DNA from: Lachnospiraceae bacterium
GTDB taxonomy: Bacteria; Bacillota; Clostridia; Lachnospirales; Lachnospiraceae
NCBI GenBank assembly: GCA_021771755.1
Contig: JAETOL010000002.1
Span: 109,141-173,140, forward strand
DNA: 64,000 bases
Reading direction: 5' to 3'
Part shown: positions 9,920 through 22,270 of the stretch, in pieces
Layout: the number at the start of each line of letters is the position of its first letter
How positions within the stretch are numbered: position 1 is the stretch's first letter
Program-made: the position numbers and the translations under genes
The notes under the pieces: generated by a model
Told to the model about the DNA's origin: nothing
The model's input: only the letters and a program-made list of their open reading frames with translations
Database searches by the model: none

Positions 9920-10014
9920 TATGAAAAGCTTTGAAAAGAGTCTGTGTCTTTATTTTATCAGAGAATATGGTTTCTGAATATGAAAATTAAAAAAATTCTG
10001 CGGAATTGAATCCA

Positions 10015-10042
10015 CATAATCTGTATTTCCCCTGCATACATT
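10015..10042 (+). promoter_or_regulatory. Candidate sigma-E promoter of spoIIID
   Basis: CATACATT at 10035-10042 matches the sigma-E -10 (CATACA.T), and CATAAT at 10015-10020 matches the -35 (CATATT) at five of six bases with a 14-bp spacer. The site is 29 bases before the spoIIID start. spoIIID is a sigma-E gene in Bacillus subtilis, so the position makes sense. No good TTGACA/TATAAT pair is seen here. Confidence 0.6.
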
Positions 10043-10070
10043 GTAAAAAGATGTATCCAGGGGAATTTTT

Positions 10071-10202
10071 GTGAAAGATTATATCGAAGAACGGGCAGTG
10101 AAGATCGCATCTTATATCATTGAAACCAGAGCGACAGTCCGGCAGGCGGCAAAAAAGTTTGGGATTAGTAAGAGTACGGTACATATGGTAGTAATAAAAT
10201 AG
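10071..10202 (+). pseudogene. spoIIID: spoIIID, 5' part (gene interrupted by mobile element)
   Basis: SpoIIID is a small DNA-binding regulator of mother-cell sporulation genes. From a GTG at 10071 (AGGGGA upstream) the frame encodes VKDYIEERAVKIASYIIETR and the HTH VRQAAKKFGISKSTVH, matching SpoIIID up to His38 (10182-10184). It then reads foreign codons MVVIK and stops at 10202. The missing half, starting HKDCSERLAEINP, lies at 22127-22270. Joining 10071-10184 to 22130-22270 gives one uninterrupted 84-residue SpoIIID. As it stands, this fragment lacks most of the second half of the protein and is presumably inactive until the element is excised. Confidence 0.93.
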
Positions 10203-10208
10203 AACGGT
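10158..10208. other. attL: left junction of the spoIIID element
   Basis: spoIIID codons end at ACATA (10181-10185), a 5-bp sequence shared with the right junction (22126-22130). From 10186 to 10208 the sequence is element DNA that forms the right half of the reconstructed attP (ends GAACGGT, mirroring ACCGTTC at 22102-22108). The palindrome centre falls on the CA inside ACATA. Confidence 0.85.
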
Positions 10209-10244
10209 TTGTGAGTTGGGTGTGGAGAGTTGAATAGAGAGACG

Positions 10245-10271
10245 AAAAGGTCGGAGAGATTCCGGCCTTTT
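10245..10271 (+). terminator. Hairpin terminator at left end of element
   Basis: AAAAGGTCGG (10245-10254) pairs with CCGGCCTTTT (10262-10271) with one G-U. In the chromosome it would stop transcripts entering from spoIIID. In the excised circle it lies 7 bases after the new stop codon (10235-10237) of the recombinase gene, and would be its terminator. Confidence 0.7.
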
Positions 10272-10396
10272 ATGATGTCTGGATTGAATTGCGAATATAT
10301 AGATGATATACTTTGTTTAAGTAAAGAGGGACGTTATACTTTGTGTAAAGAGTAAAGTGAAAGGGAAAGGACAGCGGTTGCTGTCTAAAGAAAGCG

Positions 10397-11333
10397 ATGG
10401 AGAAAAAGTTTGGAAAGTTAGTTACAAGTGTAGGAAAGAATACAAAGGATTTATTACAAAAATCGAAAAATATTGCAATTCAGGCAGTTGATCAAAATGA
10501 TGATGGAAAATTTGATCTGGAAGATGTTTCTTCAATGGCAGCAACCGTTGGAAATGCTGTGAAAAAAGGTGCACAGACATTTAAGGAAACAACAGATGAA
10601 AAAGCACGTCAATTAGAATTAAAAGCTTTGCGTCCGATATTTTTAGAAACTTTGAATGATACTGATTTTTTCATGCCTAAATTTATTAGAATAACCGAAA
10701 GAGATAAGAAACATGCGGAAAGCGAAGTGTGTAGAGGTTCGATAGGCTTTTGTCTGATCAGAAAGAACTTCGTATTGTAAATATCTTTCGAGATTCCATA
10801 GATTCATATGGAGTGTCATTTTACCCGGATGGTGACAGTGAGCTTTATTATGTGGATCCTAGTAATAGGGATGAGTATATTGCTTTGGATGAATATTTTA
10901 GTTATTTGAAACAGGTACGAATCAGTGAATTACAAAGGATTGCACAGGATCTTGGAGCAAAGCATTTCAAAGTCACTTACAAAGAGGAAAAAACTTCATT
11001 TTCAGAAAAGAAGGTAAGCAAAAAAGTTACTGCAAAGTCAATCGCGTCTGCAGATGTGGAAGAGAATTATGAGGATAAAAAGTATTCAATCACAGAAATT
11101 GCAGCAGAGATGGAATGTCCAGGACATCCTCCGGTAAAACCGGTGTTAAAGTATATGAAATATGATCCGAGCATAAAAGGACTTGTAGAAATGAGAATGA
11201 ATGAGAATGGACCGTTGCTTCATCAAAAATTGATGCGGTACTAAGGGGTATGAAATGTACTGGAAATGCAACTGTAGTAAACGAAACCCAGAATGAGTCC
11301 AGAAGGTATCTGGAATATGAAATAGATTTTTAG
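10397..11333 (+). pseudogene. Decayed gene of unknown function with EF-hand-like loop
   Basis: Three consecutive open pieces in different frames look like one former protein. Piece 1 (10397-10780) starts MEKKFGKLVTSVGKNTKD and holds an EF-hand-like loop DQNDDGKFDLED (residues 33-44). Its true sequence appears to leave frame after CRGSIGF near 10750, continuing as LSDQKELRIVNIFRDSID in piece 2 (to 11244). A third piece, 11250-11333, ends NESRRYLEYEIDF, which fits a C-terminus. Piece 2 has a charged middle (EEKTSFSEKKVSKK). I do not recognise the family. A terminator follows at 11412. An alternative is two small independent genes overlapping at 10750. Confidence 0.55.
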
Positions 11334-11411
11334 GGAATACGGATATTGGTAAATATATGTACATAAAATGGCGGGATGATTTTTCGCCAGTAGATCTTAG
11401 AAAAAATAAAG

Positions 11412-11470
11412 GCATGAATTGCATTTTGAGCAGACAGGGTTGCTTAAATACAATTCATGCTTTTCTTTTT
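11412..11470 (+). terminator. Terminator after decayed EF-hand-like gene
   Basis: GCATGAATTG (11412-11421) and CAATTCATGC (11451-11460) are perfect 10-bp arms with a 29-base loop, followed by TTTTCTTTTT (11461-11470). Confidence 0.75.
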
Positions 11471-11532
11471 AATAGATTTACCCAAACTGATTTTTAGTTT
11501 GGCTGGTGTGTATTAAGGTAAATACACCCTAA

Positions 11533-11660
11533 AATATATTATAGTATAATGATTCCTTCGAGGCTATGGGGAGCGAAATCCCCATTAAGATTGCAGGGGA
11601 ACTAAACCTCAAGAAGTGAGTTTTGAGCAGCTCTGGCGAATCTTGCTCTGGTTCTAATAA
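11533..11660 (+). ncRNA. Candidate structured RNA in gene-free gap of the element
   Basis: The 11334-11832 gap has no convincing gene. After an AT-rich stretch containing TATAAT-like sequence (11545-11550), a perfect hairpin ATGGGGA-GCGAAA-TCCCCAT spans 11566-11585, followed by a weaker AAACCTCA/TGAGTTT pairing (about 11604-11623). This could be a small RNA or the leader of the 58-codon gene. No family recognised. Confidence 0.25.
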
Positions 11661-11832
11661 TGATGTTGATTAAAAAATTTTGAAATAGGGTATTTTTAGG
11701 CTTCTGAAACCTGTTATGAGTGAAGGGATATTTTTTGGATAAAGTCAATTTTGAAAAATAGAGACTATTTTATTGTTCTTTTTCATAGTAATGGACAAAG
11801 GTTAATGACAGGAAGGAGGTGGAAGCTCCGCT

Positions 11833-12009
11833 ATGAAGGAACGAAAGTTGAATTACAGATTTCATAATCCGAACACAGCGGCAGCCACCGCCGACTACAT
11901 ACTTAAAATTTTAATAGATGCAAATTCAGAAAAGGTGGAAAAAGTAATTAGGACTACGATGGATCAGGTGGTTCAAGCGTCGGAATGTGATGAGGGGGAT
12001 TCAGTGTAA
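11833..12009 (+). CDS. Small conserved mobile-element protein, 58 residues
   Basis: ATG at 11833 is preceded by GGAAGGAGG about 10 bases upstream. The protein starts MKERKLNYRFHNPN and contains TADYILKILIDANSEKVEK, a pattern I associate with short proteins found near serine recombinases and other mobile genes of Clostridia. It probably forms helices; no known domain and no membrane segment. Function unknown. It precedes the AlbA_2 gene by about 130 bases and may share its transcript. Confidence 0.6.
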   Translation: MKERKLNYRFHNPNTAAATADYILKILIDANSEKVEKVIRTTMDQVVQASECDEGDSV

Positions 12010-12142
12010 ATAGTGCATGGAATCTCCTGTTTTATTTCTGCATGTCTTGAGTTATGACTACAAATCAGTTAAAATTAGTTCTAGAAAGTCCTAGAATAGT
12101 CATAGCATTTAGTCATAGAAGATTTTGAAAGGTGGAAAAAGT

Positions 12143-13810
12143 ATGATTTATACGGACAACCAATTAAAAGAAAAAATAGTACAAATGATAGATGGCTTTG
12201 AAAGTGAAATTGTAGAATTTAAAGAGGCAAAAAGCAATTATTCGTTTAACGATATTGGAAAATACTTTTCAGCACTTAGTAATGAAGCAAATATTCGAGG
12301 ATATCAAGAAGCTTGGTTAATATTTGGGATTTCTAATGATAAGAAATTTGTTGGTACTGAATTCAGGAAACAGGGAAGTTTACAGAATTTAAAGAAAGAA
12401 CTTGTAAACGGGACAAATGAAAGATTAACATTCATGGAAATATATGAATTAACCATGGGAAAATGTCGTGTAGTAGCATTCCAGATTCCACCCGCAATTC
12501 GAGGTATACCTACAACATGGCAAGGGGCAGCTTATGCCAGAGAGCATGAAGCAGTTTGTCCTTTACCGATGAATAAGGTTGATTTGATAAGAAGCCAGAT
12601 TGGAATGGACTGGTCTAAAGAAATTGTTGAAGAGGCTTCGATGGAAGATTTGGATTCAGAGGCAGTTAAAAGAGCAAGAGAATTGTTCTCAAAACGCCAG
12701 AGCAACAGAAAAAAAGCACAGGAAGTTTTGAATAAGTTATCAGATGTTGAAGTGTTAAATAAGGCAGGAATTACTATTAAAGGGAAAATAACCAGAACCG
12801 CATTACTTTTGCTGGGAAATAGTGAATCTGCACATTATTTTGATGGATTTATTCCAAGAATCACGTGGACATTATATAATGCAGACAATTCTGTAAAGAC
12901 CTATGAACATTTTGATATGCCGATGCTTTTGGCTGTGGACAAGGTCTACTCTAGAATAAGAAACATAAAGTATCGATATATTGCGGGGCAACAGACATTA
13001 TTTCCTGATGAAGTGGATCAATATGAACCAGAGCTGATAAAAGAGATTATTAATAACTGTATTGCACATCAAGATTATCGTTTGCGTGGGAAAATCAACG
13101 TAGAGGAATTTGAAGATAAACTGGTTTTTATTAATGAGGGTGCCTTTATTCCTGAGACAATAGAGCAAGCACTGGAACCCGGATACAAACCGCCGTATTA
13201 CAGAAATGTATTTTTGTGTAATGCTATGGTAAATCTGTATATGATAGATACAAATTCAATGGGAATTCCGATGATGTATCAGATACAGAGAGATAAGTGC
13301 TTCCCATTGCCAACGTATGATTTAAATATAATTAACAGAGTTAAAGTTACGGTTTATGGAAAAATACTGGACAAAAACTATACGCAACTGCTGTATACTA
13401 ATGGAGACCTGGATATGAGAACTGTCTTTTTGTTGGATCAGGTCCAGAAACATGAAGTTGTTTCTAAGGAGAGCTTTAAGCAACTGAAAAAGCAAGGACT
13501 TGTTGAAGGACGGTATCCAAATATATTTGTGTCATTTAAAGTGGCTGATATCGTTGGTCAGAAAGCAGTGTATGTGCGTAACAAAGGACTTAATGATGAT
13601 ATTTGCAAACAATTGATTATTAAGGCATTAGAATCAATGGGAGAAGCAAGTAAGCAGGAATTGATGGAAGTGTTGGAAAAAGCGTTGCCGGAAGTTTTAA
13701 GTGATGAGCAGAAATCCAAGAAGGTATCTAATCTATTGCAAGCAATGAAAAAAGAAGGATTAGTGTTTGCAGAAGGTAAAAATCGATATGCAAAATGGAG
13801 TCTGAAATAG
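12143..13810 (+). CDS. AlbA_2 / GHKL-like ATP-binding protein
   Basis: 555-residue protein of the 'RNA-binding/AlbA_2 (Schlafen-like) domain' family. The N-terminal third (ESEIVEFKEAKSNYSFND, IGKYFSALSNEAN, WLIFGISND) is the AlbA_2 fold. A central section ELIKEIINNCIAHQDYRLRG with LVFINEGAF resembles the GHKL-ATPase N and G1 boxes. The C-terminus carries winged-helix-like repeats. Start placed at 12143 (AAGGTGG upstream) rather than a TTG 18 bases earlier. Such proteins are often annotated as transcriptional regulators or RecG-like helicases and are frequent in defence islands. It is followed by jetA after 77 bases; it may regulate the system or be a separate defence gene. Codon use is more AT-rich than in jetABCD. 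Confidence 0.75.
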   Translation: MIYTDNQLKEKIVQMIDGFESEIVEFKEAKSNYSFNDIGKYFSALSNEANIRGYQEAWLIFGISNDKKFVGTEFRKQGSLQNLKKELVNGTNERLTFMEIYELTMGKCRVVAFQIPPAIRGIPTTWQGAAYAREHEAVCPLPMNKVDLIRSQIGMDWSKEIVEEASMEDLDSEAVKRARELFSKRQSNRKKAQEVLNKLSDVEVLNKAGITIKGKITRTALLLLGNSESAHYFDGFIPRITWTLYNADNSVKTYEHFDMPMLLAVDKVYSRIRNIKYRYIAGQQTLFPDEVDQYEPELIKEIINNCIAHQDYRLRGKINVEEFEDKLVFINEGAFIPETIEQALEPGYKPPYYRNVFLCNAMVNLYMIDTNSMGIPMMYQIQRDKCFPLPTYDLNIINRVKVTVYGKILDKNYTQLLYTNGDLDMRTVFLLDQVQKHEVVSKESFKQLKKQGLVEGRYPNIFVSFKVADIVGQKAVYVRNKGLNDDICKQLIIKALESMGEASKQELMEVLEKALPEVLSDEQKSKKVSNLLQAMKKEGLVFAEGKNRYAKWSLK

Positions 13811-13887
13811 TTTCTGGGATCGGGTAGGGTTTTATTAATTACCTACATTTTTACTTTACGATAAATAATAATAGAGAAGGTAAAAGA

Positions 13888-15303
13888 ATGTCATATTTTG
13901 ATAGCTTGAATGATAAATTTTTTAATCCATTTTGCTGCAGAAACCGTGAGGTTTATTTTGAAAGTATTAGTCTGCTTATTGAAAAATCGAAGGAAATTCC
14001 GATTCTGTATGAGACGGATGCCAGACAGTGCTTAATTATCTATTTGCAGAATTGTATGTATTCTATAGAGACGGAAGATATCGGTGAGGAGATCAGCAGC
14101 GTGCGGAGTCCGCAGGAAAATGCATCCGCCATTTTACGATATTTTCGCACATGCGGCTGGATTACACCGAAGGAAATCGGGCGTACCGGAGATAACATCG
14201 CTTCCGTTTCCGCTTACTGCCGCAAATTAATTGATGCGATTCATCGAATTTTTGATCAGGATACGAACAGCACAATCACAAATCATATTTTTTCCATTTA
14301 TGAGATCCTGAAAACATCTCTGGGAAAAGACAGTGCCCGTGCGATCCGACCGTATTCCAATATCCTTGTGCCTCTGGTCGAAAATGAATGCGACCTGAAA
14401 AATGAACTTCTAATCTTAAAAGACAGTATTCGTGAGATCATGCGTGCCGTTATGAAAATGCCGGATGTAAATAGTTTCGGACAGTTTCTGATCAAAGATG
14501 AGATGCTGACACGTTTTTTTAATGACTATTTCTTTATAAAAAAGAGCGGTCTGATTCCCTCCTATATTTCTGAGATTGCCCGAATGCTGCGTCGGCTCAG
14601 ACGTTCGGAACTGTATGATAAAATGCTGAGCGAATATAGAAAACTGAAGAATAACGATGAATTCAGGGCAAAAGAAATCATTGACCGTCAGTTTGGCGAA
14701 ATGGAAAGTTTTATCAACTTTGAATATGAACAGGAAATGAACTATATTGATAACAAAATCAATACCTACTACAATTTGTATGCGACCCGCATGATGCTGG
14801 TGCTAAGCAACGGCACCAATCTTGAACATGTCATAAACCGGATTCTGATGCTGTTAAAAGATATGGACGAGGAGAACCGGGAGTTTGTTTTGCAGCAGCT
14901 GGCGCAGACGCATCAGCTGCAAAGTGTCGGATTTATCAGCAGAAAATCTTTTGAGCGTCGGAAAAAGGCCAATCCGAACCTGAAAAATGCCGGAATTGTT
15001 ATGGATGAACTTTCGGAGGAAGAGAGACAGCGGCTGACAGATGAACTGATAACGGAGACACCGGACCGATACAGTCTTGATCATGTAAAAGATTACTTTG
15101 ACCGGATGACGTTCTTAAGGGATAAGCTGCGTGTGGATGAATGCGGCGTGCGTACAAGGGACGATGCGATGATGGTGGCTGCCAGTATGATCTATTCGGG
15201 CACAGCCGGATTTCCATATGAGGTAGAGTTCGAAGAGGGAACCGTTGAGACAGAAGTTGCAACAATCAGCAAAATCAGTATAAAGAGGAAATGCGATGAG
15301 TGA
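13888..15303 (+). CDS. jetA: Wadjet component JetA (MukF/kleisin-like)
   Basis: First gene of a tightly overlapping four-gene operon with the order and sizes of Wadjet plasmid-defence systems. 471 residues; start MSYFDSLNDKFFNPFCCRNR with GAGAAGG upstream. N-terminal winged-helix-like part, then long helices with charged coiled-coil character (residues 240-300), and a C-terminal part around SLDHVKDYFDRMTFL. JetA is the kleisin that bridges the SMC-like JetC. I would place it in the DUF5716-type JetA family (not the DUF3375 family of type I) from memory of the N-terminus; this subtype call is tentative. Overlaps jetB by 8 bases. Confidence 0.85.
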   Translation: MSYFDSLNDKFFNPFCCRNREVYFESISLLIEKSKEIPILYETDARQCLIIYLQNCMYSIETEDIGEEISSVRSPQENASAILRYFRTCGWITPKEIGRTGDNIASVSAYCRKLIDAIHRIFDQDTNSTITNHIFSIYEILKTSLGKDSARAIRPYSNILVPLVENECDLKNELLILKDSIREIMRAVMKMPDVNSFGQFLIKDEMLTRFFNDYFFIKKSGLIPSYISEIARMLRRLRRSELYDKMLSEYRKLKNNDEFRAKEIIDRQFGEMESFINFEYEQEMNYIDNKINTYYNLYATRMMLVLSNGTNLEHVINRILMLLKDMDEENREFVLQQLAQTHQLQSVGFISRKSFERRKKANPNLKNAGIVMDELSEEERQRLTDELITETPDRYSLDHVKDYFDRMTFLRDKLRVDECGVRTRDDAMMVAASMIYSGTAGFPYEVEFEEGTVETEVATISKISIKRKCDE

Positions 15304-15961
15304 TATCAGTTTACAGATTACAATAAAAGAAGAGAATGGTATTTTATTTAAAAGATGTGTTCGAAAATTGCTGGAATCTACATTTATTCTCAGGGAGAAG
15401 GATGAGAAATTATTTTCCTTTGTATCCAGAGAATCAAACCGACAGGACATTTCCGAATATCTTCGGATGATAGGCTTTGATATTCTGGTGGATGTAAAAA
15501 CGGGTGTCAGTATGCTGATTGTCAGCGAAGAGGATGAGGAAACAGTGGGACTGAAACGTGCGAATGTAATTACATTTTCCACGCTCCAGTATCACATGCT
15601 TCTGGTTTTGTGGAAGGTCTATCTGGAAAATCTGGGATATAACGAAGGAAATTTTGTCACAAAGGGTGATTTGATTGATAAAATTAAATCTTACGGCGTT
15701 GTACCGACGAAACAGGAACTGGGTGCGGCTTTTAAACTGTTCAAAAAGTACAGTCTGATTAATTTTGACGAGGATGATCATGGGGAGGATATGAAAATTC
15801 AGCTCTATCCCTCCTTGCAGTTTGGCTGGGATATTCCGCAGTTCCAGACGGTTGCAGATGAATATCTGAAACGGAATGAGACGGAGGAAGAAACTGCTGA
15901 CAATTCTGAAGAGGAAATACAGCAGATAAGTTTAGAAGATTATGAGGAGGACGAGGTATGA
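15296..15961 (+). CDS. jetB: Wadjet component JetB (MukE/kite-like)
   Basis: 221 residues; acidic C-terminal tail (NSEEEIQQISLEDYEEDEV). In the known complex JetB is the winged-helix KITE subunit that binds the JetA kleisin. Winged-helix-like segments are visible around LQYHMLLVLWKVYLENLGY and TKQELGAAFKLFKKYSLIN. The ATG overlaps the jetA stop by 8 bases, and its own stop overlaps the jetC ATG by 4, indicating translational coupling and fixed stoichiometry. Identified mainly by position and size; the sequence alone is not distinctive to me. Confidence 0.8.
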   Translation: MSDISLQITIKEENGILFKRCVRKLLESTFILREKDEKLFSFVSRESNRQDISEYLRMIGFDILVDVKTGVSMLIVSEEDEETVGLKRANVITFSTLQYHMLLVLWKVYLENLGYNEGNFVTKGDLIDKIKSYGVVPTKQELGAAFKLFKKYSLINFDEDDHGEDMKIQLYPSLQFGWDIPQFQTVADEYLKRNETEEETADNSEEEIQQISLEDYEEDEV

Positions 15962-18900
15962 TTATATTGAAAAAAGTCCGCCTAATTAATTGGTATGGAT
16001 TTTCCAATGTTACTGCGCCTATCGGCCTTTTTACACTGATCGCAGGAAAAAACGGAAATGGGAAGTCGGTTATGTTGGATGCTATTAAATATGCTGCATT
16101 TGGCGATACGATTTTTAACAAATCATCAGAAAACAAAGGAAGCAGAACACTTTCTTCGTATACCAGAGGGCTTCTTGATGCAACGGCCGGAACCTATATG
16201 CGTCCGGCCGACAAGGCGCCCAATGTATATAGCCATATTGTACAGGAATATTATGATGATGTGGAAGAAAAGTTCTTTATTCTCGGAGCAGTGATTGAGA
16301 CGAATGCTTCAAACAACTGTCAGACTCTGAGATATGTTGCGGACAAAACATCTCTGGATGATATGGAACATCTATATGTGCAAAATGGAATGAAAATGCC
16401 ATATTCCGCTTCACAGCTGCAAAAAAAATATGGACTTACTCTGCTTCTGCGGGAACCGGGAATTCAGAAGTTTATGCAGATGACCGGCCTGAAGCTGAAT
16501 ATCAATCAGGTAAATGCCTATCTTCGGAAACTGCGCGGCATTATGTCTTATGATCCCAATGCGAAAATTGATAAATTCATCAGAGAGAGCGTTCTGGAGG
16601 AACGAAATGTGGACTTTACCAAACTGATTGAGGCAAAAGGGAACATTGAGCGGTTGAATGATACCTTTTCCCTGATTCAGGAAGAGATTGAGGAGCTGGA
16701 AAAAATCCTGAGTGAATATGATACCTGTGAAAATGAGAAGAATCGTCTGCTGGCGGATGATATTAAGATTGTTTACCGACGGATGAAAAGATTAAATGTA
16801 GAGATTGAGGAAAAGATCCGTGAGCAGAATATTGCATCTAGGAAAAAGAGTGAGATGGTACAGACGCTGGAGGTACTGGAACAAAGAAGTGATGCAATTA
16901 ATCAGAGACTGATTCAGGCACAGATCAGTCTAAACCGGTTAGACAGTACAAAAATGATTCAGGAAGAAGAAAAACGTCTCGATGTATTAAGGAAAGAAAA
17001 ACGACAACTCTCTCTGGCAAAAAATGATCTGGAACAGTTCCAGACAAAGGTAAGTGAGATCCTCTACGAATTTTTAGAAGATGGACGTGAAGTGGAAAAA
17101 AAGGAAATGCTGACCTCGCTCAGCAGCAGTTTCTGTTCTGCGTTTGAAAAAGAGAGTGCAGTTGCCTGGTTAAAGCAGGCGGTAAATGAGCGTTATGATG
17201 ATTTTACGGCACAGGGTGCTTTGATCAGACAGGAAATCGAAAAACTGGAGCGAAAGTTAGGCGAGCAGGAAAAAATTCTGGAAGAAGCCAGAAAGCGCAG
17301 GAATACATATGCGCAGATTCCGGAGTATGTGGGATTGAAAGATGAGATAAATCGTGAGTTTGCAAAACGGAAGTTTCCGGCGGAGGCGAAATTTGCCTGT
17401 GAGTATGTGATCGACATTACAGATGAGTCCTGGCGTGATGCGATTGAGGCATTTCTTGGTATTCGCCGGTATACGATTCTGGTGGATCCGGAGTATTATG
17501 ATATTGCTGATGATGTACTGAACCGTTCCAAGAACAGATATGCACATTTGTTCAATACGAAACTGTTGATGAAGAAAAAAATTGAACCGGAAAAAGATTC
17601 GGTGGTGCATTTCCTGAACATTAAAAATAAGGTGGCAAAGAAATATTTTGATTTTCAGTTGGGAAGAATGCATGCTGTGAAGTTGGAGGAGGTTAGAAAC
17701 CGAGAAAATGCAATTTCTGTGGAAGGGCGTGTGTCTGTTAATATGGATAGTTATTTCCTGTGTTTTGAACGTATCCGCTCCTATTATCTGGGGCAGGAAA
17801 CATTTGAACTGAACCGGAAACGCGCAGAAAAGGAAATTATAAGATTACAGGCAGAGCGTGGGGAAAAACTTTCTGCCCGGAAAACAATTGCAGACAGAAA
17901 GAACCGCTTGAGTCAGGATAAGGAATTTTTTAAAGAGTATGATTATGATGTGCATGCAAAGTATCAGAAGACAGTAAAAGAACTGGATGAATCGCATAAA
18001 CAGCTGGAGAAACTGAAAAAGGCACAGAAGAATAACAGAGAATATCTGGAATTGAGTCAGCTGGTATCCCGTCTTGAGGATGAGCATGCTGCGGTGAAGA
18101 ATGAGCAGAAAGAGGCAATGAACGAGAACAGCAGGCTGGAAACAACGATTCAGGTCTGCGGAAATGCCATTGATACGAAAACAATGGAGTTTAATAAGGA
18201 AAAAGAAAAATTCACAGAATATAAGATTTCGGCTTATCCGGTTGTTCAGAGAGCGGTTGAGGCATACGAAAAATACGTGGAAGCCGGAATGACAGGAACA
18301 GGAGGAATCATTGCTTCGGAGACAAGAAGCCGCTTATCAAGAGGTATTGAACAGCACAGGAAAGCACTGATCGGCCTGCAATCTAGCTATAATGTAAAAC
18401 ATTCGGATAACTCAATGCCGGTTGGAGAGACGGACCGGGATGTATATGCGAAGCGAAAAGACCGCATCTGGATGGACGATCTGCAGGAAATACGTGAAAA
18501 GCTGGATGCTCAGACAAAACGTTATGAGGATATCTTCAAAAACGAATTTGTGCTGACAATTTTGAAGATCTGTGACAATGCACAGGATGATCTCAAACAG
18601 ATCAATGCAGAACTGGCGAAACTGAACTTTTCAACCCGATACCAGTTTGATGTTCATTATGTGAAAGATGGATCGGAGTACGCTAAGATTATTGAGTATG
18701 CAAAGTATCTGGATGAAAGAGAAAAGCTGGGAGACAATTCCGGACAGATGACCCTCGGTATGGTGACTTCCGTATCGGACGAGGAGGGTGAGCAGCTGGA
18801 ACGGGAACTGAAACAGATCATTACTCGGATTATCGAGAAAAACAGTGATGAAACCATTGCACGTTTTGCAGATTACCGGAATTACATGACATATGAGATT

Positions 18901-19266
18901 CTCATGAGCAATCATATTCTGGATCGTGCAAAATTGTCGCGCCAGACAGGGTTTAACTCAGGTGCGGAAGTGCAGATTCCTTATTTGTTAATTTTATCTT
19001 CTGCATTGCTTATGATTTACAATCAGAAGGTGAATTCTGCCAGACTGGTATTTATTGATGAGCCGTTCGCCAAGATGGATCCAGGCAATGTGAAGCTGAT
19101 GCTGGATTTTATGAAAAAACAGAATCTGCAGGTAATTTTCTGCTCGCCGGACAAGACGGAGTCAATCGGCAACGAATGTGAAGTGATTTTGCCGGTACTG
19201 CGAGTACGGCCAGACAGTATGCAGCTTGGTATTGTGCAGTTCCATGAGGAGAAGACTTATGAATGA
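15958..19266 (+). CDS. jetC: Wadjet component JetC (SMC/MukB-like ATPase)
   Basis: 1102-residue SMC-like ATPase, the DNA loop-extruding motor of Wadjet. Walker A GKNGNGKS at residues 30-37 sits in the N-terminal head. Two long coiled-coil arms (about 230-430 and 630-860) flank a hinge-like globular region around ITDESWRDAIEAFLGIRRY. The C-terminal head has Walker B LVFIDEPF with Asp1034/Glu1035, followed by VIFCSPDKTESIG. Length and architecture match JetC rather than chromosomal SMC (about 1,180 residues with a different hinge). Overlaps jetB by 4 and jetD by 8 bases. Confidence 0.9.
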   Translation: MIILKKVRLINWYGFSNVTAPIGLFTLIAGKNGNGKSVMLDAIKYAAFGDTIFNKSSENKGSRTLSSYTRGLLDATAGTYMRPADKAPNVYSHIVQEYYDDVEEKFFILGAVIETNASNNCQTLRYVADKTSLDDMEHLYVQNGMKMPYSASQLQKKYGLTLLLREPGIQKFMQMTGLKLNINQVNAYLRKLRGIMSYDPNAKIDKFIRESVLEERNVDFTKLIEAKGNIERLNDTFSLIQEEIEELEKILSEYDTCENEKNRLLADDIKIVYRRMKRLNVEIEEKIREQNIASRKKSEMVQTLEVLEQRSDAINQRLIQAQISLNRLDSTKMIQEEEKRLDVLRKEKRQLSLAKNDLEQFQTKVSEILYEFLEDGREVEKKEMLTSLSSSFCSAFEKESAVAWLKQAVNERYDDFTAQGALIRQEIEKLERKLGEQEKILEEARKRRNTYAQIPEYVGLKDEINREFAKRKFPAEAKFACEYVIDITDESWRDAIEAFLGIRRYTILVDPEYYDIADDVLNRSKNRYAHLFNTKLLMKKKIEPEKDSVVHFLNIKNKVAKKYFDFQLGRMHAVKLEEVRNRENAISVEGRVSVNMDSYFLCFERIRSYYLGQETFELNRKRAEKEIIRLQAERGEKLSARKTIADRKNRLSQDKEFFKEYDYDVHAKYQKTVKELDESHKQLEKLKKAQKNNREYLELSQLVSRLEDEHAAVKNEQKEAMNENSRLETTIQVCGNAIDTKTMEFNKEKEKFTEYKISAYPVVQRAVEAYEKYVEAGMTGTGGIIASETRSRLSRGIEQHRKALIGLQSSYNVKHSDNSMPVGETDRDVYAKRKDRIWMDDLQEIREKLDAQTKRYEDIFKNEFVLTILKICDNAQDDLKQINAELAKLNFSTRYQFDVHYVKDGSEYAKIIEYAKYLDEREKLGDNSGQMTLGMVTSVSDEEGEQLERELKQIITRIIEKNSDETIARFADYRNYMTYEILMSNHILDRAKLSRQTGFNSGAEVQIPYLLILSSALLMIYNQKVNSARLVFIDEPFAKMDPGNVKLMLDFMKKQNLQVIFCSPDKTESIGNECEVILPVLRVRPDSMQLGIVQFHEEKTYE

Positions 19267-20467
19267 TTATGAAGAAAAGATGCTGCTTCTTCTGGTTGAA
19301 AAATACAGGAAAAGCAAAAAAGACAGCGGAACCGGTCGCATTAACAGGAGAACGCAGATTAAACCGATAGAATTATACAGAGGATATAATCGGAATGATG
19401 GAGATCTGGAGCAGATTAATGCTATCAATGAAACTGCCAGTAAATACCGGGAAAAAGGATTTCTGACTTTTGAAATGAAGAAATTCAGCAACGAGATTTC
19501 TTCGATCTATCTGGTTGATGAGAAAGTGGAGGAAGCGGAACGATATCTGACGGAGCACTATCAGTATGAGTCGAAGCATGAAAAAATGAAACAGGTAAAG
19601 AAAATTATTGAACAGTACAGCGGTTATTCTCCGGTTGCAGATCGGGAATGTGCAAAACTTCAGGCGAGTCTCGATAAAAATGTGGTGCCAAAGGACTATG
19701 AACAGACAAAAGAGGTGTTAAGGGCATTGATTTTTATTGAACGGAATGAACGACCCCTTTATGTACGCGAGGCATCCATGCTGATTTATGGAAGTTCGAA
19801 GTATCTGGAAGATAATACACTGGATGTGGTGTGTGGGTTGATTCGAAAATTCCGTGGAAAACCCTGTGAGGAAAATGAACTTCCGGACGAGATATTAAGC
19901 GACTATCGAATTGTAAAGGAAACGCAGAAAATCTGTTTAAAAGGGGATATCGTAATTGTGAAATCCGGAAAGACGCTGGAACTTGGAAGTTTTCGAAGTG
20001 GTGTAGAGTTTTATGCGGATGAATTGGATGAAATCGAAAGGATTACAGTCAATAATCAGCGATTTATTACTGTGGAAAATAAGACATCGTATATGCGGTG
20101 TGGAGAAGCAGATACGGCTTATTTTTATCTGGGTGGATATGCAAACCGGTTTCAGCGGGACTTCCTGAAGATGATATATGGGGATAATCCAGGAGTCCAG
20201 TACTTTCATTTTGGAGATATTGATGCCGGTGGCTTTTATATACATGAGAATCTGTGCAGGATTACAGAAATTCCGTTTGGAATTTATCGGATGTCTGTAA
20301 ATGAGTTGAAGAATCCCCGGTATAAAAACTGTCTGCTCAGTCTTTCACGAAATGACAGGAAACGTCTGAAAACGCTGGCTGAACATAATGTTTATCAGGA
20401 AACAGTGAAGTATATGCTTGAGCGGGATGTAAAACTGGAACAGGAGATTGTGAGTTATTACTCTTAA
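19259..20467 (+). CDS. jetD: Wadjet component JetD (Toprim nuclease)
   Basis: 402 residues. JetD is the topoisomerase VI-like Toprim nuclease that cuts the circular DNA trapped by JetABC. The Toprim motifs are visible: Glu273 in ITVENKTSYM and the DxD pair Asp320/Asp322 in FHFGDIDAGGFYIHENL. An N-terminal winged-helix-containing arm precedes them. The start at 19259 overlaps the jetC stop by 8 bases, behind GAGGAG. All expected catalytic residues are present, so the system looks intact. An AT-rich gap with a promoter for the recombinase follows. Confidence 0.9.
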   Translation: MNDYEEKMLLLLVEKYRKSKKDSGTGRINRRTQIKPIELYRGYNRNDGDLEQINAINETASKYREKGFLTFEMKKFSNEISSIYLVDEKVEEAERYLTEHYQYESKHEKMKQVKKIIEQYSGYSPVADRECAKLQASLDKNVVPKDYEQTKEVLRALIFIERNERPLYVREASMLIYGSSKYLEDNTLDVVCGLIRKFRGKPCEENELPDEILSDYRIVKETQKICLKGDIVIVKSGKTLELGSFRSGVEFYADELDEIERITVNNQRFITVENKTSYMRCGEADTAYFYLGGYANRFQRDFLKMIYGDNPGVQYFHFGDIDAGGFYIHENLCRITEIPFGIYRMSVNELKNPRYKNCLLSLSRNDRKRLKTLAEHNVYQETVKYMLERDVKLEQEIVSYYS

Positions 20468-20497
20468 GAGATAATTTAAGGTTCCTCTGCTTTTATG

Positions 20498-20525
20498 TTT
20501 ACAATTTTCCATTTTACAATATAAT
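20498..20525 (+). promoter_or_regulatory. Vegetative-type promoter of the serine recombinase
   Basis: TTTACA (20498-20503) and TATAAT (20520-20525) are 16 bp apart, 47 bases before the recombinase start. This is a sigma-A-like promoter. I see no convincing sigma-E box here, unlike upstream of spoIIID. Confidence 0.6.
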
Positions 20526-20571
20526 AAAGTTGTAACAGAACGACACAATTCTAACAGAAAGGTTACCCAAC

Positions 20572-22131
20572 ATGAATATAGCAGCTTATTGTCGCGTCTC
20601 CACTGATAAAACCGACCAGCTCAACAGCCTGGAAGCTCAAAAGGAGTTCTTCTCTGAATACACGAAGCGAACCGGTGATACCCTTGTAAGATTATATGCA
20701 GACGAGGGTATTTCTGGAACTAAAATTAAAAATCGGAAGGAATTTCTTCGCATGATGTCTGATGCGGAGCATGGTCTCTTTGACATGGTCGTTGTAAAAG
20801 ACATTTCCCGTTTTGCCAGAAATACGGTGGATCTTTTGCAGAACATCCGTAAGCTGAAAGCGTTAGGTATTGAAACCCAGTTCCTCACAGCTAACATGAC
20901 CAGCATGGGAAACAGTGAATTTGTGCTGACCATCTTCGGCGCTCTTGCCCAGGAAGAAAGTGCCAATACTTCCAAGCGTGTGAAATTCGGCAAGAAAATG
21001 AATGCGGAAAAAGGACGGGTTCCCAATATTGTGTACGGATATGATAAGACCATCGGCGATTATTTCAATCTGGCTATCAATCAAGAAGAGGCAAAGGTCA
21101 TCCGTCAGATTTATCAGTGGTATACGGAGGAAGGCTACGGTGCAGCCAAGATTGCCAATATGTTGAATGAAAAAGGGCTGACTACAAAGCGGAATTGTAA
21201 GTGGAGTCAGAATGCAATCTGCCGGATTTTGACTAATGAGATTTACACCGGAAAAATTATCAATGGAAAACAGGAAGTGACGGATTTCCTGACAGGCCAG
21301 AGAGCGGATAAAGACGAGACAGAATGGATGGTTGTGGAGCGACCGGAACTGCGGATTATTGATGACAAAACCTTTGAAAAGGCAGGAGAAACCCTTCATT
21401 CCAGACATGCGTCTTTCAATATGAAGCACGAACGACAAAGCAATAAATATCTGTTTTCAACATTGATAAAATGTAAGGAATGTGGATGGTCATTTCGCCG
21501 GACCGTTCGGACTTATAAGAACACTTATGTCCGCTGGGTTTGCTCCGGACATAATGGGCGTGGAGCAGACAGTTGTCCAAATGCAGTGAAGGTGGACGAA
21601 GAAGAACTGATTGAAGTTTTACAAGAATATTTTGCGGAAGTCTTGAAGCAGAAGAAAAAGGTAATCAACCATGTAGTCAACGAATTTCAGCGTGTTTACA
21701 AAGCCAAGGACGAGAATCTGGAATATGAGAAAGAGTTGAACGTGCAGCTTGCAAAACTGCAAAAGACCAGACAGAAATATATGGACATGTACACCGATGA
21801 TCTGATTACCCGCGAAGAATTGAACGAAAAAATCGGTGGTATGCGACAGGAAATCGAGCGTCTGGAAAATGAACTTAAGATGGTTTCTTATCATCTGACC
21901 AAAGGGGAACAGCTGGAAACGGTTTTAAATAATACCTTCAAAGAGATTGAAGATATTACCGATGTTCGTCAGATGACGAATGAGCAGTTAAAGAAAATTA
22001 TCCAGAAGATTGAGGTGGACAAGGACGGAAATGTGGATATTTTCCTGCGTCTGTTCGGCGACCTTGGATTAGACGAGTCTGTGCTGGTAGAGGATAACAT
22101 TACCGTTCCTGATAATAACATCCAAACATAA
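20572..22131 (+). CDS. Large serine recombinase of the spoIIID element
   Basis: 519-residue site-specific recombinase that should integrate and excise the element. The resolvase domain starts MNIAAYCRVSTDKTDQLN with catalytic Ser10, and contains RLYADEGISGT and VVKDISRFARNTVDL. A recombinase domain (GYGAAKIANMLNEKG, WSQNAICRILTNEIYTG) and a zinc ribbon (CKECGWSF ... CPNAVKV) follow, then a coiled coil (residues 370-450). Same class as SpoIVCA, which excises skin from sigK. Its TAA stop (22129-22131) lies in the att core, created by the junction with spoIIID. In the circular form the frame would continue 17 codons (YGSNKIERFVSWVWRVE) to a stop at 10235. Confidence 0.93.
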   Translation: MNIAAYCRVSTDKTDQLNSLEAQKEFFSEYTKRTGDTLVRLYADEGISGTKIKNRKEFLRMMSDAEHGLFDMVVVKDISRFARNTVDLLQNIRKLKALGIETQFLTANMTSMGNSEFVLTIFGALAQEESANTSKRVKFGKKMNAEKGRVPNIVYGYDKTIGDYFNLAINQEEAKVIRQIYQWYTEEGYGAAKIANMLNEKGLTTKRNCKWSQNAICRILTNEIYTGKIINGKQEVTDFLTGQRADKDETEWMVVERPELRIIDDKTFEKAGETLHSRHASFNMKHERQSNKYLFSTLIKCKECGWSFRRTVRTYKNTYVRWVCSGHNGRGADSCPNAVKVDEEELIEVLQEYFAEVLKQKKKVINHVVNEFQRVYKAKDENLEYEKELNVQLAKLQKTRQKYMDMYTDDLITREELNEKIGGMRQEIERLENELKMVSYHLTKGEQLETVLNNTFKEIEDITDVRQMTNEQLKKIIQKIEVDKDGNVDIFLRLFGDLGLDESVLVEDNITVPDNNIQT

Positions 22132-22152
22132 AGACTGTTCTGAACGATTAGC
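22102..22152. other. attR: right junction of the spoIIID element
   Basis: Element DNA up to 22125, then ACATA (22126-22130) shared with attL, then spoIIID coding sequence. 22102-22124 pairs in inverted fashion with 10186-10208: 15 of 23 positions match, including the outer 7 (ACCGTTC) and the inner CCA. Together they form an attP-like imperfect palindrome. Confidence 0.83.
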
Positions 22153-22270
22153 GGAGATTAACCCCGGTCTGGCAGCAGAGGTGCGCCAGGTTCTGGATGT
22201 CAACAAGGCAGAACGCCATATCAGAGGAGGACTTGCTACCAGAGAGAAATATTTGCACAGAGTGATATAA
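22127..22270 (+). pseudogene. spoIIID: spoIIID, 3' part (gene interrupted by mobile element)
   Basis: From CAT at 22127 the frame reads HKDCSERLAEINPGLAAEVR and then VLDVNKAERHIRGGLATREK, ending YLHRVI at TAA 22270. This is the conserved C-terminal half of SpoIIID, including the basic helix (NKAERHIRGG). There is no start codon or ribosome binding site of its own. The sequence is intact and complementary to the fragment at 10071, with no frame lesions in either half, which suggests that selection has kept the gene restorable. A strong hairpin terminator follows. Confidence 0.93.

Follow-up and report, generated by a model that had tools for sequence, protein, structure and literature searches.

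The question raised by the 64,000-nucleotide stretch of DNA analysed here (the window, from contig JAETOL010000002.1 of the Lachnospiraceae assembly GCA_021771755.1) is how a gut Blautia genome could make the mother-cell regulator SpoIIID when its spoIIID gene is interrupted at codon 38/39 by an element of 11.9 kb. The answer that we consider probable is that the element, which splits the sole copy of the gene, would be excised in the mother cell with the help of a 58-residue recombination directionality factor (RDF) made under sigma-E, and that this excision would restore SpoIIID. The two halves lie on the + strand and were recognized by translation and by the profile PF12116: codons 1-38 at 10071..10184 (profile match 1-40; GTG start behind AGGGGAA) and codons 38-84 plus stop at 22127..22270 (profile match 37-80). 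Left unexcised, the N-terminal reading frame would run on to a 43-residue peptide. When the halves are joined in silico they yield VKDYIEER...SKSTVH-KDCSERL...LHRVI, a protein of 84 residues with no codon lost, and the nearest intact SpoIIIDs (P0001, P0002) differ from it at two to three residues besides the start codon. A sigma-E-type promoter, CATAATC..CATACATT, is predicted before the gene (10013..10043, +), and a similar layout is found before both intact and split spoIIID genes of Blautia. The preliminary description of this locus had reported lesion-free halves in the same orientation, the motif ACATA at both junctions (10181-10185 and 22126-22130), exact restoration upon recombination and a large serine recombinase (LSR) ending at the right junction, and we recovered all of these features at the same coordinates; the Wadjet operon, the small gene at 11833-12009 and the recurrence in other genomes, described below, are additional to it. 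A search of the whole 3.70-Mb genome (99.98% complete, 164 contigs) with the PF12116 profile returned the two halves only and no intact spoIIID.

The LSR (20572..22131, +, 519 aa) carries all three domains of its class (Resolvase, Recombinase and Zn_ribbon_recom in Pfam; PHROGs integrase, E 8.3e-117), has the N-terminal block that is conserved in the alignment of these enzymes, and is preceded by a predicted sigma-A-like promoter, TTTACA-N16-TATAAT (20498..20525, +). Its stop codon TAA (22129-22131) lies inside the right core. The attachment (att) sites consist of the attL core ACATA (10181..10185), a left arm (10182..10207) that is in part an inverted copy of the right arm and resembles the left ends of other elements, and the right arm together with the attR core (22102..22131). 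The crossover probably takes place at the CA of 10182-10183 and 22127-22128, because CA is the centre of the palindrome in the unsplit attP of viral contig L158. Unsplit attP sites were found downstream of the LSR in four viral contigs (L157 and L158-L160, the latter three nearly identical to one another over the 21.5 kb compared), with arms inverted around CA (AACCGTTCT...AGAACGGTT in L157); these contigs came from a recombinase search, and a search of viral contigs with the exact att pattern gave none. Their existence implies that there are forms that are not integrated at spoIIID and that phages use the site too; contig L157 has matches to an endolysin, a tail fibre, a DNA polymerase and a DNA ligase. 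Relatives of the LSR on plasmids were all below 60% identity (489 records, 27-33% among the matches listed), and the phage record MT838016, which has a 57% LSR match, was rejected as a phage relative as it carries a spoIIID C-half and hence is a bacterial fragment. The repeats TTGTAACAGAACG ... TAACAGAAAGG that follow the recombinase promoter (20520-20570 of the window, and in relatives) resemble the att arms, an arrangement that would suit autoregulation by the recombinase.

The same split was found in many other genomes. Among 64 Blautia genomes, spoIIID scored over the cut-off in 38, of which 13 had half-gene matches only (both halves on one contig in nine, on two contigs in two, and one half in two). 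The preliminary description had called for a count of such loci in Lachnospiraceae: in a sample of 397 genomes the gene was present over the cut-off in 241, and 29 of these counted as half-only on the basis of their best E-values (1e-24 to 1e-15). Re-examination of 27 of the 29 gave two pieces in 20 and one piece in seven, some of which may be contig breaks; 16 of the 27 have an LSR of this family (E<=1e-100), located within ~140 nt of the C-half in 14 cases. A scan based on the recombinase only, in which spoIIID was not used and the best 80 of 579 loci were taken, retrieved hosts from the Lachnospiraceae, Oscillospiraceae, Clostridium, Ruminiclostridium, Anaerobacterium and a Pelosinus-like lineage. 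The full-length LSRs that scored at least 590 bits were situated next to half of a spoIIID gene, with the break in the same codon, in 51 of 54 loci (the exceptions being L048, L069 and L098), and those with lower scores in none of 22 at a half on the same strand. Within a tree of 86 LSRs, in which the window LSR falls in the spoIIID-targeting part, the spoIIID label required five changes against a mean of 22 for shuffled labels (0/500 shuffles as low). Because the same codon and the same recombinase family recur in 51 of 54 loci found without spoIIID, chance is excluded as the cause of the split. An assembly error or chimaera, to which a draft genome is open, can likewise be regarded as excluded, as the layout is also present within single contigs of the one-contig genomes G017, G062 and G295 and in the named isolate Schaedlerella arabinosiphila (L050).

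The preliminary description had named a second intact spoIIID, or decay of either half in relatives together with failure to find an excised junction, as observations that would speak against a switch. Ten further public carrier genomes were searched whole, and in all ten spoIIID was present as two halves, with no intact copy. Among the halves adjoining the recombinase, all 49 C-halves were open to their stop codon (45 of them starting at most 200 nt from the LSR stop) and 0 of 11 N-halves contained a stop, counts that were obtained with tblastn and miss halves decayed beyond its reach; three recombinase loci show no half.

A number of loci deviate from the common layout. In L138, L140 and L143 (G195, G139 and G234) a run of different serine recombinases precedes a C-half that is split one to two codons further on, and a second recombinase class has thus reached nearly the same spot. 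Locus L047 (2091-2678, G031) contains a spoIIID N-half with the left end of an element, an attL remnant, and, ~230 nt further on, an intact spoIIID preceded by a promoter of its own; this would be a scar or a re-acquired copy of the gene. In L099 (1081; ~11560-11620) the recombinase is followed by what resembles the (attP-like) left end of another element and not by a C-half of spoIIID, which suggests a tandem of two elements. The halves in G169 (C33, 63511-138633) are 75 kb apart with the LSR adjoining the C-half, and some spoIIID elements may be much larger than 11.9 kb, perhaps prophages. Finally, L102 has a spoIIID N-half (17205-17366, -) on the opposite strand at ~6 kb from the recombinase.

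What could direct the recombinase towards excision? Clustering of the open reading frames (ORFs) of 18 complete elements, among them five closely similar versions of a single Blautia element, showed that next to the LSR one protein family recurs in every element (detected in 15 by blastp, in a further two by tblastn and weakly in L093), and after addition of L148-L156 a relative was present in 25 of 27. Its member in the window is the 58-residue protein encoded at 11833..12009 (+). Over all loci the small gene was detected in 56 of 73 (40 of 54 from the recombinase search); it lies on the LSR strand in 55 of the 56 loci that have both, and starts at most 500 nt before the LSR in 25. The protein has the motif KLNYRFHNPNT. 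Searches of Pfam and PHROGs connected it to no family, and 3250 relatives were recovered among 3622 candidates, the named ones among the matches listed being hypothetical or uncharacterised. The structure model is a two-helix hairpin (predicted local distance difference test score, pLDDT, 86), for which the best match among solved structures had an E-value of 0.083. Copies of the protein with a related NPNT-type motif were also found in the vicinity of LSRs with other target sites (L105, L109, L110 and L161-L163), as would be expected for a partner of the recombinase. We infer that the small protein is the RDF, because the predicted division of promoters, sigma-E-type for the small gene in most loci and a tendency to sigma-A-like for the LSR, matches that of the skin element of Clostridioides difficile.

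The promoter evidence is as follows. Upstream of the small gene a mother-cell-type block is predicted, GACTATT-N14-CATAGTAAT together with ATGGACAA, which resembles the core of a SpoIIID box (11762..11801, +). The block GACTATT-N14-CATAGTWATGGACAAAG is kept, with variants such as TCATATT-N14-CATAATAT in L108, before the small gene across elements of different host families, including those of Lachnospiraceae and Oscillospiraceae and the viral contig L158. We scanned 73 loci, near copies left out and the related loci among them not being independent, with a generic sigma-E model of the B. subtilis type and a generic sigma-A model, a point that weighs against our reading; a sigma-E model derived from the host was abandoned as there were too few promoters. 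With the sigma-E model the mean excess over shuffled counterparts was 5.73 bits for the upstream regions of the small gene (p<=0.05 in 32 of 55) and 0.70 bits for those of the LSR (8 of 73). The sigma-A model gave the opposite ranking with a smaller contrast (+1.36 bits for the LSR, 16 of 73, and +0.52 bits for the small gene, 4 of 55). The sequence CATA occurred within the expected interval in 44 of 55 small-gene upstream regions, and WWRRACAR just downstream in 23 of 55 compared to 3.1 expected from mononucleotide shuffles. CATA boxes were also present upstream of the host's own spoIIID, sigK, spoIVA and spoIIIAA. Our first counts (40 of 43 loci with the small gene, which shared the strand of the LSR in 40 of 40) were superseded, as these loci had partly been chosen for having the small gene; the rescan of the whole set lowered its presence, and the promoter contrast between small gene and LSR persisted.

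Together these elements suggest the following course of events. The recombinase would be made in growing cells from its sigma-A-like promoter and would keep the element integrated. Once sigma-E has become active, the small protein would be made, in the mother cell only, and would bind the recombinase and permit recombination between attL and attR, after which the sigma-E-type spoIIID promoter would drive the synthesis of full-length SpoIIID. The position of the box next to the -10 region suggests negative feedback: SpoIIID may repress the small gene and so complete a regulatory circuit. In the forespore the element would be retained, and the spore line would inherit it. Excision is placed in the mother cell because the promoters suggest the same division of labour as in the C. 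difficile skin. The preliminary description had argued that a switch at spoIIID must fire soon after sigma-E, which fits the predicted promoter of the small gene. Of its skin-like reading, the interrupted sole gene, the exact restorability and the element's own recombinase hold; control over sporulation is what the sequence leads us to propose.

Several observations weigh against this proposal. A relative of the small gene went undetected in 14 of the 54 recombinase loci; eight of these records start within 2.2 kb of the LSR, and L076, L081, L089, L098, L100 and L101 miss the gene despite 10 kb of upstream sequence. The complete elements L148 and L149 do not have the small protein, and in L062 its gene is divergent from the LSR. 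For 57 of the 73 (partly related) LSR upstream regions the sigma-A model remained short of p<=0.05. Sporulation may be dispensable in parts of Blautia, because 26 of the 64 genomes, many of them incomplete, were without a spoIIID match over the cut-off. The LSR of G331 (C49, 9891-11375; locus L148) contains a TAG in frame, next to a spoIIID C-half that is open, which points to decay or a sequencing error, and in the genome studied here sigK and spoIID score below the NCBIfam cut-offs.

An alternative is that the element is stuck, spoIIID is lost and the lineage no longer sporulates. The TAG in G331 and the unseen excised form agree with such a dead end, which we nevertheless judge highly improbable: in the window the LSR, the small gene, the att arms, the spoIIID promoter and both halves are intact, and the genome retains spoIVA and spoIIIAA (both over the cut-off) as well as an unsplit sigK. 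Moreover, the ratio of nonsynonymous to synonymous substitution rates (dN/dS) of the halves is of the same order as that of intact genes (median pairwise values in Blautia for the N- and C-terminal parts: split 0.033 and 0.123, intact 0.048 and 0.074), as calculated from unsaturated pairs only (split 21 and 12 of 36; intact 122 and 70 of 190); synonymous sites are near saturation, and a late relaxation of selection would escape this comparison, which again counts against a maintained switch.

The element could also be a parasitic insertion that uses spoIIID as a conserved attachment site and is excised rarely and at no particular time, so that the host sporulates poorly until the element leaves. 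We consider this unlikely, though clearly less so than the dead end. Identity is 100.0% over the 13.6 kb common to L037 and L040, whose flanks align over 130-150 nt only (75-86%), and 96.5% over the 12.3 kb common to L033 and L036, next to a 172-nt flank at 74%; in general, elements were 96-100% identical over their shared parts and the alignable host flanks ~74-93%. Near-identical elements in diverged species imply that the family is transferred from species to species and that several insertions took place recently, and intact halves in such cases may only mean that the insertion is young. The occurrence of the same LSR family and of an unsplit attP in viral contigs, one of them with phage genes, the many relatives without spoIIID altogether, and a defence cargo that can pay for carriage are also in line with parasitism. 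It does not account well for the mother-cell-type block that is kept before the small gene in Lachnospiraceae, Oscillospiraceae and the viral contig L158, for the absence of decay among the halves found, or for a third of the spoIIID-bearing Blautia genomes having only halves. Excision in the mother cell remains our preferred explanation.

The genes of the element are all on the + strand. From left to right there are two overlapping ORFs of 127 and 164 aa (10397..11244; no match in Pfam, PADLOC or PHROGs), which are perhaps one frame-shifted gene, then the small protein, a Schlafen AlbA_2/HATPase_c_4 protein (12125..13810; Pfam, with a helicase match in PHROGs) and, in front of the LSR, the four Wadjet genes, both of these being cargo: jetA (13888..15303; PADLOC E 1.9e-245), jetB (15296..15961; E 9.4e-93), jetC (15958..19266; E 0, 1691.7 bits, and weak PHROGs matches) and jetD (19226..20467; E 8.5e-150). 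The jet genes are consecutive on one strand, and their best PADLOC matches are the type I models. Phage head, tail or lysis genes were not matched by nine ORFs of the element in PHROGs or by eight in Pfam. The cargo varies between elements, which have the LSR and, in 25 of 27 complete ones, the small protein in common. For 23 of the other 26 complete elements, a scan against PADLOC and Pfam (93 of 127 listed ORFs) detected, among others, AbiL/RloA-like ATPases (six proteins), RloB (four), AriAB, a type II restriction enzyme and methyltransferase, and a protein matching the NERD-helicase model for a reverse-transcriptase defence system. Defence cargo is frequent but not universal, as the antiporter-type protein of L152 shows. 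It is pure speculation that the excised 11.9-kb circle is cut by its own JetABCD, which would lock spoIIID in the on state. On a wider proposal our confidence is evenly divided: spoIIID would serve as a common landing site in several orders of Bacillota, where a clade of LSRs with their small partner, riding on defence islands or temperate phages, occupies the same codon and runs a one-shot timer in which sigma-E switches on the directionality factor, excision yields SpoIIID and SpoIIID shuts the factor off.

How does this element relate to known systems? The comparison draws on excerpts of the cited papers. These list sigK, spsM, spoVFB, gerE and yabG (PMC10747680) and in addition spoVR (PMC5025042) as interrupted sporulation genes, and spoIIID is absent from the lists in these excerpts. 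Our literature search, which contained no preprints and few subscription papers and in which absence is not proof, found no report of a spoIIID-intervening element, and a search on sporulation of the named element hosts gave nothing useful. The phage phi6013 of C. pasteurianum encodes a spoIIID (PMC5027557), which is different from a spoIIID that is interrupted by an element. Wadjet type I, an anti-plasmid system, is represented here by all of its four genes, but carried inside a sporulation-gene-intervening element.

The closest parallel is the skin element in sigK of C. difficile, in which the constitutive LSR CD1231 is expressed from a sigma-A promoter and the RDF CD1234 from a sigma-E promoter, and both together bring about excision (PMC5025042). 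Both are LSR elements in the gene of a mother-cell regulator that excision restores, or here would restore, and the predicted promoters divide in the same way. The skin element is described as prophage-like, and expression of CD1234 needs SpoIIID (PMC5025042); the cargo of the window, in contrast, is a defence system, and the target is located upstream in the cascade, SpoIIID being active at an early stage of mother-cell development, under the control of sigma-E and ahead of sigma-K and GerE (PMC517825). SpoIIID takes part in skin switching in both B. subtilis and C. difficile, according to the excerpts. Here it cannot be required for its own repair and an RDF that depends on it is impossible before excision, so that the split gene predicts a switch that runs on sigma-E only, unlike either skin. 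The prophage SP-beta in spsM of B. subtilis, of which the LSR SprA and the mother-cell RDF SprB restore the gene (PMC4191935, PMC5025042, PMC10747680), is comparable in that viral contigs exist for the present LSR family too, whereas spsM is a spore-envelope gene and not a regulator. The gin element in gerE of B. cereus, a non-phage element with three recombinases (GirA-C) and GirX (PMC5595907), likewise occupies a small mother-cell regulator gene, and the recombinase runs of L138, L140 and L143 recall its three enzymes, but the window has one LSR, and gerE acts late where spoIIID acts early. The elements vfbin (in spoVFB) and yin (in yabG, reported to be unique to one strain; PMC10747680) differ in that the present target is a regulator gene and, from yin, in that the present family is widespread. 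If the wider proposal is correct, no earlier DNA rearrangement would be known in the mother-cell cascade, and mobile elements would control the sporulation of many gut bacteria. The family is frequent in Blautia and present in many other gut bacteria, often with defence genes, and it offers LSR/partner pairs whose att sites are already defined. The principle is known from skin, and what is new is the earlier target, a family that is widespread and has a partner protein of its own, and the frequent defence cargo.

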